A DNA stretch of 64,000 bases from NCBI RefSeq assembly GCF_013201625.1, contig NZ_CP053839.1, positions 868,001 to 932,000 on the forward strand, written 5' to 3'. This DNA is from Aliarcobacter lanthieri (GTDB taxonomy: Bacteria; Campylobacterota; Campylobacteria; Campylobacterales; Arcobacteraceae). The translations under genes were made by a program, and so were the position numbers. The notes below the pieces were generated by a model, which saw nothing but the letters and a program-made list of their open reading frames with translations, had not been told where the DNA came from and made no database searches. This document shows, one piece after another, positions 33,204-43,403 of the stretch. The stretch's first letter is position 1; every line of letters starts with the position of its first letter.

Positions 33204-33767
33204 TTATTTTTCCCATTTAGCCTTTGGAGCTTTATAATTTAAAATCTTTTCTAATAAATCATCTATATTATCACTAACTATTAACATATCAACATGTTCT
33301 TGTTTTATAAATCCTTCAGTTGCACAATTTTGTAAAAATTCTAATAATTTATCATAGTAACCATTTATATTATAAAATGCACATGGTTTTGTATGGTAAC
33401 CAATTTGTGCTGATGATATTACATCAAATATTTCATCAAATGTTCCATATCCACCTGGAAGAGCTATAAAGCCATCGCTTAATTCTTCCATTTTTGCTTT
33501 TCTTTGATTTATTGTTTCAACTTTATAGATAGTTGATAATTTTTCATTTTCTAACTCTTTTGATGCTAAATCAAAAGTTATGACTCCAATAACTTGATTA
33601 TTTAGTCTTAAAGATTCATTTGAAATTATTCCCATAATTCCTTGTTTACTTCCACCATAAACAATATTAATATTATTCTTGGCTAGTTTTCTTGCAAGGT
33701 TTATAGCTTCTTCTTCATAGATATCGCTATTTCCAAATGCAGAACCACAATAAATTGCTAAATTCAT
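33204..33767 (-). CDS. LOG-family nucleotide phosphoribohydrolase
   Basis: The 187-residue cytosolic protein has the LOG-family signature PGGYGTFDEIF (about 104-114) and an N-terminal YCGSAFGNS block (about 6-14). The expected second glycine-rich motif appears as YGGSKQGIMG (37-46). LOG proteins cleave the N-glycosidic bond of nucleoside 5'-monophosphates, originally described for cytokinin activation; bacterial roles are often in nucleotide turnover. The start overlaps the RND gene stop by one base, so it is the last gene of the mla operon. No functional link to lipid transport is evident. Confidence 0.9.
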   Translation of the reverse strand: MNLAIYCGSAFGNSDIYEEEAINLARKLAKNNINIVYGGSKQGIMGIISNESLRLNNQVIGVITFDLASKELENEKLSTIYKVETINQRKAKMEELSDGFIALPGGYGTFDEIFDVISSAQIGYHTKPCAFYNINGYYDKLLEFLQNCATEGFIKQEHVDMLIVSDNIDDLLEKILNYKAPKAKWEK

Positions 33768-36250
33768 TATTTTTTCTCCTTTTTAGTATATGGTTTTAAC
33801 ATTAATAACATCTTTGGTAAAAGTAGTAAATCAGCTATTAAAACGCTTATCATTACAACTCCTGTTAAAAGTCCAAAGTATATTGTAGGAATAAGATTTG
33901 AAAGCATTAAAATCGAAAAACCTATTACTATAACAATTGTTGTATAGTACATAGCATGTCCTATCCCTTCATGAGCTCTTTTTATTGCATTCATATAATT
34001 GTGATCAAATTTATATTCAACTTCAAATCTATGAATAAAATGTATAGTATCGTCAACAGCAATTCCTAAAGCAATTGCTGCAATTGTAATAGTCATAATA
34101 TCAAGTGGAATTCCAAGCCAACCCATAATTCCAAAAACTAAAGATATTGGTATTAAATTTGAAACTATTGCTATAAAAACAACTTTTGATGATCTAAATA
34201 TTAAAAAGAACATAATTGATAAAACAAGTAATGAGGCTCCAAAAGTAGATGCTTGTGATTCAAAAAGAGATTGTAGCATATTGTTGTATAACACCATAAG
34301 ATTTGATAATCTATATGTTGTATCTTTATTTGTAATAATCTCTTGTAAATCATGATCTATTTTTTTTAATAAATCATCTCTTCTTAAATTTGGGTTTGAA
34401 TCTATAACTCTCATTGTAATTCTTGCTTCATTTGCATCTATATTTACATAAGGAGATAAGATTAGTTGTTTATATTCTTCTGGAAGTTGATTATAAATTA
34501 AAGCTAGAGTTATACCATCTAAATCTTGATTGTGATTAAGAGTTTTACCTATTTTTAGTAATGTTGCTAAAGATTGTACTTTTCCTATTTCTGGGATTGT
34601 TTCTAAATAGTCATGAATAGCCATAATAGTTTGCATTTTATCTTGTGAGAACCAATATTGTTTATCATCTTTTGATAAAACAAATTCATTTTCAAAGTCA
34701 TCAAAATCGTCGTTTTCTTTAGTTACTGTAATTTGTTTTATTTCATCATCTTTAAATTTTATAATAACGTCAAGAGGAGTAGTTCCTCCTAGATTTTCAT
34801 CTATTACTATCATCCCTTGATAAATTTCTGTTGATTTTTTAAAGTAATTTATAAAACTATTTTCAACAAAAAGTTTTGAAGCTCCAAATACAGAAAAAAT
34901 AACTGTTATAACACTTACAACTATTATAGTTTTTCCATTGTTTTCAACTATTTTTGAACATTTATTTATAAATGAGAATTTTCTATCAGATTTATCAAAT
35001 TCATCTTTTTTTCCAATTAGTATTAAAATAATTGGAAATAAAATAAATGAAATAATTAAAGATATAATTATTCCTAAGCTCATCATAAGCCCAAGATTTA
35101 TGACTGGTTCAATGTTTGATAAGACCAGAGAACCAAATCCTACAACAGTTGTTATAATAGCTAAAAAACAAGGCATTAACTTTGATAAAACAGTGTTTAT
35201 TACAAGTTTATATTGATTTGCTTTTTTATACTTAAAAAATAGCTCTCTATATCTTTCTATTAAGTGAATAACTATTGACATAGTAATTATTAATTGAAGT
35301 GCTACAAAGTTTGAAGATATTACAGTAACTTCCCAATCAAAAAAACCTAAAACTCCTCCAGTTGATATAATAGAGATAAAACATATTAAAATTGGAATAA
35401 ATACCCATCTTATTCTTCTAAAAATATACCAAAGAATAAAAATAAAGATAATGATAAGACTTAAACCATAAATCAATAAATCATTTTTTACAAAACCTAT
35501 AGCATCAGAAGCTATCATATTTACTCCACCAAGGAAAATATTAGCTTCATCTTCATAATTTTTTATAATTTCTCTTATCTCTTCAATATTTTTTTTATCA
35601 CTGTATCTTAATATATCTCTATATTTTTTAAATTCAATGATAGTTTTTTCAAGCTCTTTTTCTTCAATTTTAGTAATACTTCCATTTTTTTGTTTTTCTA
35701 AAAGAGTATTTCTTTTATCCAAAAAATCAAAATATTCAGTATTCTCTTTTAAATTTAAAATAATAGCTGTTGTTTTAAAATCATCACTTACAAGTGCATT
35801 CTTATATAATGGAGAAGTTAAAAATTCATTTCTTACAAGTTCTTTATCGAAATCTCCTGTTTGCATATTATCTACACCTGCAACTAAATCTGAAATAGGG
35901 CGAATTGGAGATTGTAAAAGAGGGACAGTTAAGATTGAATCAACTTTTGTTATATTTTCAACTTTAGAAAAATCATCTGATATATTTTTAATTACTTCTA
36001 AAGATTTTTCACTTAAAAGATACTCTTTTGGAGAAAAAGTTACTATTAAAAAATTTGAATTTTCATATTTTTTATAAACTTCTCTAAAAAACTTTAAATC
36101 TTCGTCATCTTCAAGTAATAATGTTTCTGCACTTGCATCTATTTGTACTTTTGTAGAATAGTATCCTAAAGTACAAATAAATGAAGCTACTAGTAGTAAA
36201 ACTAAAAAAGGATACCTAAAAATAAAGGTATCATATATTTTTTTAACCAT
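33767..36250 (-). CDS. RND-superfamily (MMPL-type) lipid exporter
   Basis: The 827-residue inner-membrane protein has two repeats, each with a membrane helix, a large periplasmic loop and a five-helix bundle (helices near 14-34, 260-410, 445-465, 670-800). The second bundle shows the usual AIALGIAVDDTIHFIHRFE motif (about 728-746). It belongs to the RND/MMPL group that includes HpnN and the Campylobacter Cj1373-type proteins. It likely moves phospholipid or a related hydrophobic compound with the MlaC-like and MlaA-like proteins encoded just upstream (5-base and 4-base gaps). No MlaFED transporter is present here. Confidence 0.88.
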   Translation of the reverse strand: MVKKIYDTFIFRYPFLVLLLVASFICTLGYYSTKVQIDASAETLLLEDDEDLKFFREVYKKYENSNFLIVTFSPKEYLLSEKSLEVIKNISDDFSKVENITKVDSILTVPLLQSPIRPISDLVAGVDNMQTGDFDKELVRNEFLTSPLYKNALVSDDFKTTAIILNLKENTEYFDFLDKRNTLLEKQKNGSITKIEEKELEKTIIEFKKYRDILRYSDKKNIEEIREIIKNYEDEANIFLGGVNMIASDAIGFVKNDLLIYGLSLIIIFIFILWYIFRRIRWVFIPILICFISIISTGGVLGFFDWEVTVISSNFVALQLIITMSIVIHLIERYRELFFKYKKANQYKLVINTVLSKLMPCFLAIITTVVGFGSLVLSNIEPVINLGLMMSLGIIISLIISFILFPIILILIGKKDEFDKSDRKFSFINKCSKIVENNGKTIIVVSVITVIFSVFGASKLFVENSFINYFKKSTEIYQGMIVIDENLGGTTPLDVIIKFKDDEIKQITVTKENDDFDDFENEFVLSKDDKQYWFSQDKMQTIMAIHDYLETIPEIGKVQSLATLLKIGKTLNHNQDLDGITLALIYNQLPEEYKQLILSPYVNIDANEARITMRVIDSNPNLRRDDLLKKIDHDLQEIITNKDTTYRLSNLMVLYNNMLQSLFESQASTFGASLLVLSIMFFLIFRSSKVVFIAIVSNLIPISLVFGIMGWLGIPLDIMTITIAAIALGIAVDDTIHFIHRFEVEYKFDHNYMNAIKRAHEGIGHAMYYTTIVIVIGFSILMLSNLIPTIYFGLLTGVVMISVLIADLLLLPKMLLMLKPYTKKEKK

Positions 36251-36255
36251 ATCTA

Positions 36256-36834
36256 TTATTGATTTTTAAACTGTTCGAACATATCATTAAAAGATTTCTC
36301 TTTTAATAATCCTGCAAACTGTTGCCTATATGTTTGAATAATACTTACACCAACTAAATCAATATCATAGATATACCATTCTCCATTTTTTTTATAGAAA
36401 TTATAATTTACATCATAATTTCCTTCTTTTCCTAAAAGTTGAGTTTTTAATTGAAGACGAGTTTTATTATAAGGCTCTAAAGACAATATTTTTACTTGTT
36501 GATCATTATAAAGTTCTAATTTTTCACTATAAGATTTTTTTAATTTATCTTCAAAAACTTCTACAAATTCATCTTGTTGAACTTCATTTATACTTTCCCA
36601 AGCATCTTTACCTAAAGCTATTTTTGCCATAAGTTCAAAATCAAAAGCATCATCAACTATATTTATAATCTCTTTTTTCTTTTCTTCAAAGTTTATATCT
36701 TTATTTTTTAATACCACTAAAACACTATTTATTCTTTTTGTCATCTCTTCTTCTATTTCATCTTCTTTTAAAGCAAAAGCATTTGATGCAATAATAGCAA
36801 TTAGAAATGTAATTTTAAAAAAATACCTTCTCAT
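36256..36834 (-). CDS. MlaC-like periplasmic phospholipid carrier
   Basis: The 192-residue exported protein has a signal peptide (about 1-22, ending SNAFA) and matches MlaC/Ttg2D: early helices (KRINSVLVVLKNK), the IVDDAFDFELMAKIALGKDAWESI block, and a beta-rich second half ending NYNFYKKNGEWYIYDIDLVGVSIIQTYRQQFAGLL, the most conserved MlaC stretch (given here in part: KKNGEWYIYDIDLVGVSII). It would ferry phospholipid across the periplasm between the MlaA-like and RND partners. Gap of five bases to the RND gene. Confidence 0.93.
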   Translation of the reverse strand: MRRYFFKITFLIAIIASNAFALKEDEIEEEMTKRINSVLVVLKNKDINFEEKKKEIINIVDDAFDFELMAKIALGKDAWESINEVQQDEFVEVFEDKLKKSYSEKLELYNDQQVKILSLEPYNKTRLQLKTQLLGKEGNYDVNYNFYKKNGEWYIYDIDLVGVSIIQTYRQQFAGLLKEKSFNDMFEQFKNQ

Positions 36835-36838
36835 AATT

Positions 36839-37582
36839 CTACTCCTCTATCTCTTTAGTTCTTTTTTGCTTATAAATATCTCTTAAATATGGATATAAAT
36901 CTAAAGCATCTTTTTTGATTGTTTCATAAAAATCTGGATGGAAAGAGTATTCATTTACTTTATATAAACTATCAATCGCAAATTCTTGGAGACTATTTTG
37001 TGGAATTTTGTAATCAAAAGTATTATGTCCTAATTGGCTAGTAGGTAATACAATTAAATCTCCAGTTAATCCAACCATATCTCTTAAATTAGAAGGTCCT
37101 AATAATGGTAGAACTACTGGAAAGCCATCTCCAATTCCCCATTTCCCTAATGTTTGTCCAAAATCTGCTCTATGAAGCTTCATACCAATAACATCTGTAG
37201 CAGGATCCATAAAACCAGCAATCCCCCAAATAGTATTTATAAAAAATCTTCCAACTTCCTCAGAAGCATTTTGAAACTTAAATTGTAAAATATTATTTAA
37301 AAATCTTACAGGAAACATTAAGTTTGTAAAAAAATTATTTATTCCTGTTCTTGCTGTTTTGGGCATAACTGTTGCGTAACCTTTTGAAACAGGAGCCAAT
37401 ACATAAGAATAAAATCCATCATTAAATGATGTCATAGCTCTATTATAAGCACTTAATGGATCAAAAACTTCTTCAGTTTTTGAAGAAAATTCTGAATCAA
37501 AATCATCAAAAGAGTCATTCTCTTGAGGCTCATTTGCAAAACATAACAGTGCAAAAAACATTATAAAAATTAGTTTTTTCAT
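36839..37582 (-). CDS. mlaA: MlaA/VacJ-family outer-membrane protein
   Basis: The 247-residue protein starts with a signal peptide (MKKLIFIMFFALLCFANE) without a clear lipobox (the Cys at 14 is followed by FANE). The VacJ/MlaA core is clear: DPLSAYNRAMTSFNDGFYSY, INNFFTNLMFPVRFLNNILQ, ADFGQTLGKWGIGDGFPVVLPLLGPSNLRD (split: FGQTLGKWGIGDG, VLPLLGPSNLRD) and YYx-type ends. MlaA removes mislocalised phospholipids from the outer leaflet. It is the first of three overlapping-style genes (mlaA, mlaC, RND), an order like Cj1371-Cj1373. A divergent promoter region separates it from yebC. Confidence 0.93.
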   Translation of the reverse strand: MKKLIFIMFFALLCFANEPQENDSFDDFDSEFSSKTEEVFDPLSAYNRAMTSFNDGFYSYVLAPVSKGYATVMPKTARTGINNFFTNLMFPVRFLNNILQFKFQNASEEVGRFFINTIWGIAGFMDPATDVIGMKLHRADFGQTLGKWGIGDGFPVVLPLLGPSNLRDMVGLTGDLIVLPTSQLGHNTFDYKIPQNSLQEFAIDSLYKVNEYSFHPDFYETIKKDALDLYPYLRDIYKQKRTKEIEE

Positions 37583-38462: not shown

Positions 38463-39038
38463 ATGAATGATAATCAAAAAAATTTAACTGAGACAAGTGA
38501 ACTTGGAAATGTAGATCAAATAAGAGAAATTTTATTTGGTTCGCAAACAAGAGAACTAAATAAAAGATTTGAAAAGTTAGAAAGTGATATTAAAAGATCT
38601 TTTGATGAATTAAAATCAAAAATTGAACAAAGTCAAAAAGATTTTAATAATAGATTAGAAAATGAGATAGAACTTATATCTAAAAAAATTAAGAATTTAA
38701 CTATTCAACAACAAGAAGAACTTTCTGATATTAAAGAAAATGAGTTAAAACAAGAAAAAAGAATTCAAAATAGTATTGATTTATTAAATGAAGAACTAAG
38801 TTCTAAACATGAACAATTATATAAAGAGCAATTAGATAATAAAAATAGTTTAATTGATGATATGAATCTATTAAAACTTGAATTATTTGAGTTCTTAGAG
38901 TTGAAATTGTCTGAAATGAACACTATTAAACTTTCAAGAGATGATGCAGCAGAAATTATGCTAGAAGCTGCTATGAGAATAAAAGGTAATAGTGTAGAAA
39001 AGCAATTAAATTTAGTTACAGACGAAAATAAAGATTAA
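38463..39038 (+). CDS. Coiled-coil protein of the GTPase/OmpA operon
   Basis: The 191-residue cytosolic protein is nearly all charged helix. VDQIREILFGSQTRELNKRF (about 18-37) is followed by a long heptad-like coiled coil (38-150) and a C-terminal helix rich in Asp/Glu (DDAAEIMLEAAMRIKG). The I-x-E-I-L-F-G-S-x-x-x-x-L-x-x-R pattern recurs in altered form at the N-terminus of the next protein (LKALLLKEELETLQKI), suggesting a shared docking helix. AGGAG lies 7 bases before the ATG. It is 11 bases upstream of the OmpA-domain gene. Family not identified. Confidence 0.75.
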   Translation: MNDNQKNLTETSELGNVDQIREILFGSQTRELNKRFEKLESDIKRSFDELKSKIEQSQKDFNNRLENEIELISKKIKNLTIQQQEELSDIKENELKQEKRIQNSIDLLNEELSSKHEQLYKEQLDNKNSLIDDMNLLKLELFEFLELKLSEMNTIKLSRDDAAEIMLEAAMRIKGNSVEKQLNLVTDENKD

Positions 39039-39049
39039 GATGTATTTTA

Positions 39050-40819
39050 ATGGATGATCTAAATAAACTTAAAGCTCTTCTTTTAAAAGAAGAACTAGAA
39101 ACATTACAAAAGATTAATATTCAAATACAAGATTTGAATTATGAAGTAAATAATCAAGATATTATAGTAGAAAAGATCTCTCCATTAATTTCACAAATTT
39201 TAGAAAAAAATTATACAAGTGATAAAAATTTATTAGATAAGGCTCTTTCACCATTAGTAGAATCTCTTATTGATAGAAATTTTGAACAATCAAAAGATAA
39301 AGTTGTAAGTCAGATGGCTCCTATTATTACAACTGCTATTGGTAAAAGTATAAAATCTCATAAAAATGAAGTTGTTGATACTTTATATCCAGTTGTAGGT
39401 AATATGATAAGTAAATATGTATCAAAAACTTTTGAAGAGATGATAGAATCTATAAATTATCAAGTAAAACAAGCTCTTACTTTTAAATCAATAACAAGAA
39501 AAATCAAAGCTAAATTTCAAGGTGTTAGTGAAGCAGAACTTTTATTAAAAGATAGTGCTATTGCAAATATAAAAGCAGTTTTTTTCATACATAAAGAAAC
39601 AGGTATAGTTTTAGCAAATGTTCAAAGAGATGAAAATAAGATAAATGAGCCTGAAATGGTAGCCTCTATGCTTACAGCTATTAGAAGTTTTATAAATGAT
39701 TGGGTTGATAAAAATGATAAACATCATGAAGTGAATACAATAGAATATGGTGGAAGCAAAATAGTTTTAGAAACAACTGGTCATAGTTATTTAGCAGTTA
39801 TTGTAGATGGTGTTGTATCAAAAGAAACAATAAAAACTATACAAAATATTTTAGGAAAATTAGTATCAAAATATGGAAATAAAATAAGAGATTTTGATGG
39901 TAATTTATCTAACTTACCTATTAACAAATTTGAAGATATTATTAAAACTTTAATAAACAATAATACCAATATTAAAAAAGAAAAAGAGAGTATTCATCCT
40001 CTTTTATATATTGTACCAATTTTATTTTTTTCTTGGATTGGATATTTAATTTATAATTCTATAATTGATAGTAACATTGAAAAAAAAGCAAATGAAATTT
40101 TATATAAAAATCCAGAATTAACTATTTATAGGTTAGAAGCTAATGTCAAGAATAGGGATATTTTTATAAATGGAGTTGTTCCTAACTCTTTTTATAAAGA
40201 TATTGCATATAATTCTTTGAAAAACTTAGAAAATATAAGTAATTTAGAAAATAATATTCAAGTTATCGATTATATAAACAATCCAAAAGATATTTATGAT
40301 AAAATAACATATTTAAGAATGGCATTAAATCAAAAAGATGGAAATAAAATAGAGTACACATATGATTATCCAACTCTTAAAGTTACAGGTTCTGTTATTA
40401 GTAAAAATGAAAAAAAGTATGTTGAAAGTCAATTCGCATTGGTAGAAGGCTTAGAAAAACTAGAGTTTGATATAAAAATAGTACCACCAGAGATTACTGA
40501 TGTGATACATTTTGATTTGAATTCAGCTGAAATTTTACCAAATCAAGAGTATAAACTTATAAATATAATTAATTTATTACATAAATTAGATGATGATTTA
40601 GTTTTAGAAGTTTATGGATTTAGAGATTATACAGGTTCAGTTGCAAGAAATGAAATTTTAGTTAATCAACGAGCCACAAATGTTATGAAATACTTAAAAG
40701 TAAAAGGGAATGTATCTCAAAAATTAGTTAATTTAGGTCGTAATGAAATTCCTGAAGGTATAGAAGAAGAGTATTTTGAACAAGGGCGAAGAGTTATTTT
40801 TAAATGGAAAGAAAAATAA
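39050..40819 (+). CDS. Roadblock-like/TM/BON-like/OmpA envelope protein
   Basis: The 589-residue protein has, in order: a short helix (3-27); four degenerate 23-residue repeats with a central Pro (SPLIS, SPLVE, APIIT, YPVVG; about 43-130); a compact alpha/beta domain (about 165-285: AVFFIHKETGIVLANV, MVASMLTAIRSFIND, HSYLAVIVDG) that looks like a roadblock/longin fold; one membrane helix (about 318-337); two BON-like repeats (about 345-460); and an OmpA C-terminal domain (about 468-589) with YGFRDYTGS, VNQRATNVMKYL and the end GRRVIFKW. Topology predicts the roadblock part in the cytosol and OmpA on peptidoglycan. The next gene, ten bases on, encodes a Rab-like GTPase. The roadblock call is by appearance. 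Confidence 0.72.
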   Translation: MDDLNKLKALLLKEELETLQKINIQIQDLNYEVNNQDIIVEKISPLISQILEKNYTSDKNLLDKALSPLVESLIDRNFEQSKDKVVSQMAPIITTAIGKSIKSHKNEVVDTLYPVVGNMISKYVSKTFEEMIESINYQVKQALTFKSITRKIKAKFQGVSEAELLLKDSAIANIKAVFFIHKETGIVLANVQRDENKINEPEMVASMLTAIRSFINDWVDKNDKHHEVNTIEYGGSKIVLETTGHSYLAVIVDGVVSKETIKTIQNILGKLVSKYGNKIRDFDGNLSNLPINKFEDIIKTLINNNTNIKKEKESIHPLLYIVPILFFSWIGYLIYNSIIDSNIEKKANEILYKNPELTIYRLEANVKNRDIFINGVVPNSFYKDIAYNSLKNLENISNLENNIQVIDYINNPKDIYDKITYLRMALNQKDGNKIEYTYDYPTLKVTGSVISKNEKKYVESQFALVEGLEKLEFDIKIVPPEITDVIHFDLNSAEILPNQEYKLINIINLLHKLDDDLVLEVYGFRDYTGSVARNEILVNQRATNVMKYLKVKGNVSQKLVNLGRNEIPEGIEEEYFEQGRRVIFKWKEK

Positions 40820-40828
40820 AGGTTTTTT

Positions 40829-41344
40829 ATGTTTAGTTATAAAATAGTTTTAGTTGGAGATTATGCTACAGGTAAAACAAGTTTAATTAGAAGATATATT
40901 GATAATAGCTTTAGTGATGAGTACAAAAGTAGTATTGGTGTAAGTATCTCTAAAAAAGAGCTAAATTCTATTATTGATAATGTAGAACATAAATCAATGA
41001 TGATGATTTGGGATATTGAAGGAAAAACAGATTTTCAACCAATATTTGCACATCATCTTATGGGGTCAAAAGCCTTTATAATCGTTGCAGACTTAACAAG
41101 AAAAGAGAGTATTGAATCAATAAAAGAGCATATTATAGTTTGTCAGAAAAGTGTTGCAAATGCTCCTATCTTTATTGCTTTAAATAAAAGTGATTTACCT
41201 TATGATGAGATAGATATTAATAATTTAAAAGCATTGTCTTCAAATATTATAGATATTTTTAAAACTTCAGCAAAAGATGAAACTTGTGTAAGAGATATAT
41301 TTGAACTTTTAAATTTAACTATTATAAAAAGTATGGTGAAGTAA
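40829..41344 (+). CDS. Rab/Ras-like small GTPase
   Basis: The 171-residue cytosolic protein has the GTPase set: P-loop GDYATGKTS (8-16), switch I YKSSIGVSIS (where the usual TIG is SIG), WDIEGKTDF as switch II (D-x-x-G-K, so the Gln that activates water in Ras/Rab is Lys), NKSD (about 120-123) and TSAKDE near 148. Length and order fit Rab/Arf-like bacterial proteins (MglA relatives). The Gln-to-Lys change predicts slow hydrolysis without a partner. It lies between a roadblock-like membrane protein (10-base gap) and a PAS-GGDEF gene (one-base overlap), so all may act together. It has no lipidation motif. Confidence 0.9.
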   Translation: MFSYKIVLVGDYATGKTSLIRRYIDNSFSDEYKSSIGVSISKKELNSIIDNVEHKSMMMIWDIEGKTDFQPIFAHHLMGSKAFIIVADLTRKESIESIKEHIIVCQKSVANAPIFIALNKSDLPYDEIDINNLKALSSNIIDIFKTSAKDETCVRDIFELLNLTIIKSMVK

Positions 41345-42546
41345 TGAAAGATTTGATTTTACCAATAGTATGTAGTAAATATAATATTTCTTATATTATT
41401 TTTGATAAAGATTTAAAAATTGTTGATTTTGCAAAAAATATGCAAGATTTTGTTGAAATTGATCTAAAAATAGAGAATAACTCTGATATTAGAGATTTCT
41501 TTTGGGAATTTGTAGGATTTGAAGATTCTTTAGATGAATTATATTTATCAAAAAAAGAGTATTTACTTATTCCAATGATTTTTAGAAATAATATATATTA
41601 TGATGTAAATATAGAAATTTGTTTTATTAAAGGTCAAAAATATTTTATTGCAATGTATACAAAGCAACAAAAAAATTCAATTGAATATTTTCAAACTATT
41701 CAAAAAATCAATGAAACAAATTTTAAAAACTATATAGAAAATAAAACAAATAATAAAATCAATGAAAAGTTAATTAGTTTTCATATTGATAAAGATGGAA
41801 TTATTAAAAAAGCAAATAGTGCTTGTACTTGTTTTTTAGGTTTAGAAGAAAAGGATCTCATTGGTAAACACTTTTCTTTATACTTTTTTTCAAGAAATAA
41901 AAAAATAGAGTTAAATAATCATAGTAATATTCTAAGAGCTGAAAGTAAAGATGGTATTGAAGTGTTTTTTCATGCTGAATCTATAAGTATAAATAATGAT
42001 GTATCATCAGATAAGATTATAGTTTGTCAAGATATAACATATTTGAAGAAAATAGAGATTGAACTTGAATATGCTGTAAATCATGATAGTTTAACTGGAC
42101 TACCAAATAGATTATATTTAATTAAAAAGATAGAAGAAAATATAGAAAAGTCAAAAAATAATAAACTTTTTTTTGCTTTATGTTTTATTGATTTAAATAA
42201 GTTTAAAGCAGTAAATGATAATTATGGTCATCATGTTGGTGATATGCTATTAAAACATGTAGGGGAAGTTTTAAAACACATTGTAAGAGAAGAAGATACA
42301 GTTTCACGACTAGGTGGAGATGAATTTGTCGTATTATTAGATAGTTTAGAATCTATAGATTACTTAGAAAAAACGGTTTTAAGAATTAAAGAAGTTTCTA
42401 AAAAAATGCCATTTCATTATAATGAAGATATAGTTATTGAGCTATCATTTAGTTTTGGAATTAGTATTTATCCAAGAGATGGTAAGGATGCTAAAACACT
42501 AATTGATAGTGCTGATAAAGAGATGTACTTAAATAAAATTAGGTAG
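41344..42546 (+). CDS. PAS-GGDEF diguanylate cyclase
   Basis: The 400-residue protein lacks membrane helices. Residues about 5-110 form an N-terminal region that may be a divergent PAS domain, about 140-235 a PAS domain (SFHIDKDGIIKKANSACTCF, GLEEKDLIGKHF), and about 240-400 a GGDEF domain: HDSLTGLPNRLYLI, FIDLNKFKAVNDNYGHHVGD and RLGGDEFVVLL. REED, five residues upstream of GGDEF, matches the RxxD inhibitory site. It should make c-di-GMP in response to a PAS signal. The ATG overlaps the GTPase stop (TAATG), implying coupling. It may be an output or a controller of the GTPase module. Confidence 0.93.
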   Translation: MKDLILPIVCSKYNISYIIFDKDLKIVDFAKNMQDFVEIDLKIENNSDIRDFFWEFVGFEDSLDELYLSKKEYLLIPMIFRNNIYYDVNIEICFIKGQKYFIAMYTKQQKNSIEYFQTIQKINETNFKNYIENKTNNKINEKLISFHIDKDGIIKKANSACTCFLGLEEKDLIGKHFSLYFFSRNKKIELNNHSNILRAESKDGIEVFFHAESISINNDVSSDKIIVCQDITYLKKIEIELEYAVNHDSLTGLPNRLYLIKKIEENIEKSKNNKLFFALCFIDLNKFKAVNDNYGHHVGDMLLKHVGEVLKHIVREEDTVSRLGGDEFVVLLDSLESIDYLEKTVLRIKEVSKKMPFHYNEDIVIELSFSFGISIYPRDGKDAKTLIDSADKEMYLNKIR

Positions 42547-42563
42547 ATAAAAATCTATCTAAT

Positions 42564-43327
42564 TTACTTTTGAGAGTTTATTTTTTCAATAGTTTTTCTT
42601 ATATCTTCGACTCTTTTAGATGAACTTGGATGTGTTGAAAAAAAGTCACTACCACTTTGTTTCCCTTCACTCATATTTTGCCAAAATTTTACAGCTTCAT
42701 ATATATTGTACCCAGCTTTATGCATTAAATAAATTCCTATTTCATCAGCTTCAGTTTCTTGCATTCTTCCATAAGGTAACATAACTCCTAAATTTGTTCC
42801 TACACCCCATATGCTTGATTAAAAGCATTTTGATATTGAGGTGCGGATGCTCCTAAAACAACATTTCCAACCATTCCAATACCTTGTTGCATCATATTTT
42901 GGCTTACTCTTTCAGCTCCATGTCGTGCAAGTGCATGTGCAATTTCATGAGATATCACAGTTGCTAATTGATCATCATTTTTAGCATATTTTAAAATTCC
43001 AGTATAGACTACAACTTTTCCACCTGGTAGACAAAAAGCATTTGCTTGTTTATCATCTACTAAATTAAATTCCCATTTAAAATCGCTTCTTTGAGCTACT
43101 TGAGCTATTCTTTGTCCTATAATTTTAACTCTTTGAGCTTCTTTTGTATTATGTACAATTTTTGCATTAGTTAAAGCTTCCTTATAAGATTTTTCACCTA
43201 AAGCCATCTCTTCATGAGATGACATAAATATCATTTGTGAACGATTTGTATATGGAGTTTTATGGGTACAAGCTGAAAATATAAAAGCTGTTAAAACTAT
43301 GAGAAAAGTATTTTTTATTATAGTCAT
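42564..43327 (-). pseudogene. M48 peptidase lipoprotein gene broken by a one-base frameshift
   Basis: From the ATG at 43327 (AAAGGA upstream) a lipoprotein signal MTIIKNTFLIVLTAFIFSAC leads to an M48 protease with zinc motif ISHEIAHALARHG (about residue 110). The frame then stops at a TAG (42800-42802) after NAFNQAYGV. The sequence continues in another frame as GTNLGVMLPYGRMQETEADEIGIYL, supplying the third zinc ligand (ETEAD) and the conserved end. Adding one G to the run CCCC (plus 42805-42808) restores one open frame of about 254 residues. It could be a pseudogene, a sequencing error, or a switchable gene, though a run of four is short. Confidence 0.85.
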
Positions 43328-43403
43328 TGTAATCCTTTTATAAATTTGATTATTCAAATTCTAACAAAATCTATATATAAAAAAGTATAAAGTAAAGTTG
43401 TTT

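Follow-up and report, generated by a model that had tools for sequence, protein, structure and literature searches.

The locus lies in a window of 64,000 bases, which corresponds to bases 868001–932000 of the 2.28-Mb Aliarcobacter lanthieri genome; positions below are those of the window. Four co-directional open reading frames (ORFs) are located on the + strand at 38463–39038, 39050–40819, 40829–41344, and 41344–42546, and are denoted here as genes 1–4. Read from the sequence in gene order, their junctions comprise an 11-base gap, a 9-base gap, and the one-base overlap TAATG, and the four genes form one operon. The original prediction, made from the sequence alone, had reported this same-strand set, and the ORFs are present at the coordinates given; its first gap and its overlap also proved correct, whereas the second gap, put at 10 bases, measures 9. 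The identities it had assigned, namely a coiled-coil protein, a membrane protein with BON and OmpA parts, a Rab-like GTPase, and a GGDEF enzyme, hold by Pfam, hydropathy, and motifs. The operon starts 20 bases downstream of yebC. At its 3' side, direct reading of the sequence revealed a terminator-like hairpin (42545–42575, + strand) composed of TTAGGTAGAT AAAA ATCTATCTAA and followed by a T-rich stretch; a terminator pattern scan missed this hairpin, whose A+T content is too high for the pattern. A promoter scan returned 39 sites, compared with 39 in shuffled sequences, and since such sites are no commoner than in the shuffles, no promoter is claimed. Two neighbors on the - strand were also recorded. 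An M48 metalloprotease gene at 42564–43357 is split into two frames of 185 and 72 residues, reflecting either a pseudogene or a sequencing error, while relatives such as L019 carry a single intact gene for 253 residues. A divergent operon at 33767–37582, beside yebC and the Rab-like GTPase (Rup) genes, encodes proteins resembling MlaA/VacJ, MlaC, and an RND/MMPL-like exporter, a set indicative of envelope lipid transport. A VacJ-like gene adjoins yebC also in Aliarcobacter genomes that carry no Rup operon.

Gene 1 (38463–39038, + strand), identified as an ORF with homologs in relatives, encodes a cytosolic protein of 191 residues with a coiled-coil-like sequence and no membrane helix. It contains a conserved N-terminal motif, NVDQIREILFGSQ, which is common to the Nostoc and rhizobial homologs, and a conserved C-terminal segment, LSRDDAAEIMLEAAMRIKG. 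Gene 2 (39050–40819, + strand) encodes an inner-membrane protein of 589 residues that, as delineated by its ORF, Pfam, and hydropathy, consists of cytosolic helices, a longin-like domain, a membrane helix, a BON domain, and an OmpA domain. The single hydrophobic helix spans residues 317–339 approximately (39998–40066, + strand; hydropathy maximum of 1.78 over 19 residues), and its N-terminal flank is rich in lysine. The periplasmic BON domain lies at residues 340–406 (40067–40267, + strand; Pfam PF04972, 27.7 bits versus a cut-off of 27), and the peptidoglycan-binding OmpA core occupies residues 488–558 (40511–40723, + strand; Pfam PF00691, 4.5e-7, above the cut-off). By motif alignment, the OmpA domain retains Asp526 and Arg541, the Asp/Arg pair that binds the peptidoglycan peptide in OmpA domains. 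The retained pair supports the earlier proposal that this part of the protein may grip the cell wall. Across phyla, the longin-like domain is the best-conserved part of gene 2, with 25–52% identity, versus 10–25% in the BON region. Such a pattern would be expected of a cytosolic domain that contacts a conserved partner and of a periplasmic part that is free to adapt. Two further observations concern the same protein. Its N-terminal half is nearer to the L003 protein (genome G013) and its C-terminal half is much nearer to the L019 protein (80–97% per block), which suggests recombination between the longin and periplasmic halves around residues 270–330. In the rhizobial proteins L026 and L027 (1021 aa), a periplasmic segment located between the membrane helix and the OmpA domain is present in several tandem copies.

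Gene 3 (40829–41344, + strand) encodes a Rab-like GTPase of 171 residues (Pfam Ras, 6e-25), and the solved sequences nearest to it are all Rabs, with Rab23 first. All five G motifs are present, including GDYATGKT (G1), WDIEGK (G3), NKSD (G4), and TSAK (G5), and switch I contains Tyr32 and Lys33. Lys66 occupies the position of Gln61 in Ras, and thus the usual catalytic glutamine is replaced. The glutamine at this G3 position is missing in 26 of the 27 GTPases compared; the L003 protein, with WDIEGQ, is the only one with Gln after the G3 glycine. Judged by these motifs, gene 3 encodes a Rab-like GTPase that is intact but devoid of the usual catalytic Gln. Gene 4 (41344–42546, + strand) encodes a 400-residue PAS-PAS-GGDEF enzyme (Pfam GGDEF, 6.5e-41). 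The RLGGDEF sequence lies at residues 322–328 (GGDEF at 324–328), and the RxxD motif of the inhibitory site is located at 315–318. Gene 4 is predicted to be a diguanylate cyclase with an intact GGDEF signature, and it possesses no phosphodiesterase domain.

Gene 2 has relatives in 13 of 60 near genomes and in 16 of 397 genomes sampled across the phylum, and homologs of the GTPase also occur on plasmids of Nostoc, Rhizobium, and Mesorhizobium. At every locus spanning the operon, genes 1–3 follow the same order with short gaps or overlaps, and a gene 1 homolog always comes first. An output gene follows them in 28 of the 29 spanning loci (duplicates of one genome counted once); these loci reach from Campylobacterota as far as a Nostoc and two plasmids of rhizobia. 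Only at L038 do genes 1–3 lack an adjacent output. The neighborhood is therefore conserved, as the original prediction required. The flanking genes vary between genera, indicating that the four genes are the unit, and the recurrence of this order across phyla amid unrelated flanks points to more than chance. Besides PAS-PAS-GGDEF proteins, the outputs include a GGDEF protein of shorter length; Nostoc has a PAS-histidine kinase at this place, and the rhizobia have a nucleotide cyclase. In five Campylobacterales metagenome-assembled genomes (L020–L024), four of them labelled Sulfurimonas, the operon is otherwise intact and the GGDEF motif of the output is degenerate (NGDSF, HADTF, FGDTF, and YADTF); these outputs may serve as sensors or receptors rather than enzymes. 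Since the GGDEF motif is lost in some outputs and others are of a different type, c-di-GMP is not the general output. A distinct arrangement is seen in an Aliarcobacter relative (L058, G009:C1:1907000-1913500), where the GTPase and the PAS-PAS-GGDEF gene are intact and side by side, the coiled-coil and OmpA genes are absent, and an A+T-rich gap of 246 bases separates the pair from yebC. This arrangement suggests that the GTPase–output pair can stand alone and that genes 1 and 2 act upstream of it.

A neighborhood of this kind was described by Wuichet and Sogaard-Andersen in 2014 as that of the Group 1 Rup proteins, in which a GTPase lacking the G3 Gln is accompanied by a coiled-coil protein, a protein with an unknown domain, a membrane helix, and an OmpA domain, and an output with GGDEF/EAL or histidine kinase domains (PMC4316618). 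According to that study, Group 1 Rup proteins are very similar to the eukaryotic Rab/Ran/Ras/Rho group, the taxa with Rup proteins include epsilon-Proteobacteria, no Rup protein had been characterized, and no interaction with MglB homologs was predicted (PMC4316618). The present operon contains a small, single-domain, non-MglA Ras/Rab-like GTPase devoid of the G3 Gln, a neighboring cytosolic coiled-coil protein, a protein that joins a further domain to an inner-membrane helix and OmpA, and an output enzyme with PAS folds at its N-terminal side. In addition, gene 2 is homologous to proteins from Nostoc and Mesorhizobium, two genera in which Group 1 members have been published. By gene content and order, the operon is a member of the Group 1 Rup type. 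It differs from the published description in that the domain is now placed, by prediction, in the longin/roadblock superfamily, and in that the output is a PAS-PAS-GGDEF protein with no phosphodiesterase. The original prediction had known of no characterized system of this make-up; this make-up was, however, already published in 2014, as that of an uncharacterized system (PMC4316618). Our literature search, which covered few subscription papers, found no experimental study of any Group 1 Rup member.

The cytosolic domain of gene 2 (residues 150–300 approximately; 39497–39949, + strand) was delineated by structure prediction, structural comparison, and conservation. An AlphaFold2 model was built for residues 90–300 from an input of eight sequences, consisting of gene 2 and seven homologs. 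The mean pLDDT is 66, with values of mostly 76–89 in the core and below 60 in the N-terminal helices. The predicted fold is β-β-α-β-β-β-α-α, preceded by a helix. All 50 of the 50 Foldseek matches listed from the PDB are longin/roadblock-superfamily chains (best E 7.7e-5), and they include SNARE longins, small subunits of AP and COPI, TRAPP, Ragulator, and MglB. In VIA-align 2 comparisons, the domain aligned with Sec22b (Z 13.9, 2.5 Å over 120 residues), VAMP7 (Z 13.1), Fuzzy in its Rab23 complex (Z 12.7), a Lokiarchaeal longin (Z 11.4), TRAPPIII-Ypt1 (Z 11.3), and MglB (3t12; Z 10.3, 2.7 Å over 106 residues). Longin/roadblock folds are also found in proteins that regulate no GTPase, which counts against reading a regulatory role from the fold. 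It is very improbable, in our estimation, that the domain is instead a PAS-fold relative that makes no contact with the GTPase and that the linkage of the four genes has some other cause. This reading draws on the relationship between longin and PAS folds (PMC3521125), on the core common to PAS, longin, and roadblock, and on the moderate confidence of the model; however, the top 50 structural matches are longin/roadblock chains and not PAS, although the two PAS folds ahead of the GGDEF domain of gene 4 do retrieve PAS chains in the same structure tools. Moreover, a GTPase platform would be expected to be linked invariantly to a Rab-like GTPase, as the domain is.

The alignments also bear on which branch of the superfamily the domain resembles. 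A published difference between the folds is that the longin has an extra C-terminal helix, which replaces the N-terminal one of the roadblock (PMC10933270). The alignments with longins extend through the last helix (model residue 211), whereas those listed with MglB and Asgard roadblock proteins end at about residues 188–192, and thus longin is the better name. At the sequence level, four of the 27 family members match Fuz_longin_1 weakly (E 0.024 at best, short of the cut-off). Searched against 16 whole genomes and three plasmids, the Fuz_longin_1 model gave four weak matches, two of them inside the gene 2 domain. These matches, although weak, agree with the fold comparison. Searches of PDB sequences with profiles of 8 and 27 member domains returned chance matches only and no longin. 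A roadblock identity by sequence was considered and rejected: the family PF03259 has no match in this genome at E ≤ 1, and a profile–profile comparison of the 27 domains with five roadblock proteins of the phylum failed, with a probability of 1.4%. PF03259 is matched by one of the 27 family members at E 0.064, below the cut-off, and occurs in just 5 of the 397 genomes sampled from the phylum. In a viral structure library, the best named matches were to longin/synaptobrevin proteins from giant viruses but did not reach E ≤ 0.001, and they are uninformative on the origin of the domain. The model thus predicts a longin/roadblock-superfamily fold, which the original prediction required, for residues 165–285, the segment that it had called roadblock-like. 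That description stands at the superfamily level but not for roadblock/MglB specifically, the domain being nearer to longins (Z 13.9 versus 10.3). Taken together, the domain left as unknown in 2014 is predicted to belong to the longin/roadblock superfamily and to lie nearer to longins than to MglB. Within a literature search that covered few subscription papers, no longin domain was described in bacterial Rup/OmpA proteins, and this model-based assignment for the Group 1 Rup domain appears to be new.

As dimers, longin and roadblock domains serve as binding platforms for small GTPases, for the most part in the role of exchange factors and in some cases in that of GTPase-activating proteins (PMC10933270; PMC3521125). 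Considering this precedent, we propose that the operon encodes a Rup-type signaling system in which the wall-anchored longin protein regulates the Rab-like GTPase, which in turn sets the output enzyme, and we assign this reading a probability of roughly 0.55. In this mechanism, the OmpA end of gene 2 would hold the protein to peptidoglycan, and the longin-like domain, probably dimeric, would form with the coiled-coil protein a platform that recruits the GTPase. The platform would alter the nucleotide state of the GTPase in the way that longin/roadblock dimers act on Rabs and MglA; exchange factor or scaffold is its most likely role. Once loaded, the GTPase would act on the PAS module at the N terminus of the output enzyme, in this case raising or lowering c-di-GMP. 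Wall tension, the distance to the outer membrane, or a ligand are candidate periplasmic inputs. The pairing of the GTPase with the GGDEF enzyme at L058, where genes 1 and 2 are absent, fits a direct GTPase–output pair, and the absence from this genome of an MglB/roadblock protein of its own (PF03259, E ≤ 1) counts in favor of the longin platform.

Some of the same features would suit a device for positioning, in which the anchored longin protein, together with the coiled coil, marks a fixed site such as a pole. The GTPase would bind and leave this landmark in cycles and so place the output locally, with no sensing of the envelope. An OmpA domain, a BON domain, and a coiled coil make a plausible fixed landmark, MglA/MglB provides a precedent for GTPase-driven polarity (PMC9481161), and the constancy of genes 1–3 beside varying outputs is expected of a generic placement device. 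The periplasmic parts, however, are highly variable between phyla and are tandemly repeated in rhizobia, which suits adaptation to an input equally as well as anchoring, and we regard positioning as possible but rather unlikely. An improbable alternative assigns the catalytic role to the output protein, which would supply the missing Gln to the GTPase in trans and leave the longin protein as a membrane anchor. The 2014 study puts this idea forward for a conserved N-terminal region of the output with an invariant Gln (PMC4316618). The lack of the G3 Gln in 26 of 27 GTPases is in line with it, as is Gln120 of gene 4, which follows the first PAS domain in the region indicated by that study. Gln120, however, lies in a helical or coiled linker, and in at least five operons that are otherwise intact (L011, L020, and L022–L024) the output has Lys or Arg in the aligned column, assumed here to be the published one. 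The aligned Gln is therefore not invariant, which weakens the in-trans proposal.

The regulation of the GTPase by the longin platform, our preferred reading, can be compared with known systems. As in MglA-MglB of Myxococcus, a small GTPase and a longin/roadblock-superfamily domain are encoded in one operon; in contrast, the GTPase is Rab-like here, and the domain is longin-like, membrane-anchored, fused to BON-OmpA, and without a roadblock match by sequence. The Actinomycetota conservons CvnA-D, an analogy drawn in the 2014 study, likewise combine a sensor, a roadblock protein, and a Ras-like GTPase in an operon (PMC4316618), but their GTPase is of the MglA type, their roadblock protein is separate, and their sensor resembles a histidine kinase. 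The combination of a Rab-like GTPase with a longin fold is shared with Fuzzy-Inturned, Mon1-Ccz1, and TRAPP. Entries for Fuzzy-Rab23 and TRAPP-Ypt1 are among the best structural matches, and Rab23 is the nearest solved GTPase sequence. The operon differs from these eukaryotic regulators in that it is bacterial and places a single longin on a transmembrane, peptidoglycan-binding protein. Furthermore, exchange of the Mon1-Ccz1/Fuzzy type depends on a GTPase whose switch I carries both a Tyr and a basic residue (PMC12383261). Switch I contains Tyr-Lys here and in the other sampled Aliarcobacter, and Tyr-Leu or Tyr-Ile in 13 of 13 sampled homologs outside the genus. The exact Mon1-Ccz1/Fuzzy mechanism is thus not general in the family, and a mode resembling TRAPP/Rab1 or a scaffold is as likely. 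That bacteria possess a genuine longin–Rab pair, in which a wall-anchored transmembrane longin drives a second-messenger output by loading or unloading a Rab-like GTPase, is a tentative and still somewhat doubtful extension of this reading.

The longin-like domain is invariably encoded beside Group 1 Rup GTPases and provides a concrete candidate for their regulator, which the 2014 study did not name. Its association with a Rup GTPase parallels the eukaryotic partnership between Rabs and longins, and the route proposed here would link the bacterial envelope to c-di-GMP by way of a small GTPase. If bacteria do possess a genuine longin–Rab pair, it would be the counterpart, for Rup GTPases, of roadblock–MglA, and it would bear on whether longins and Rabs were already partners before eukaryotes arose or whether eukaryotes acquired the partnership from bacteria.
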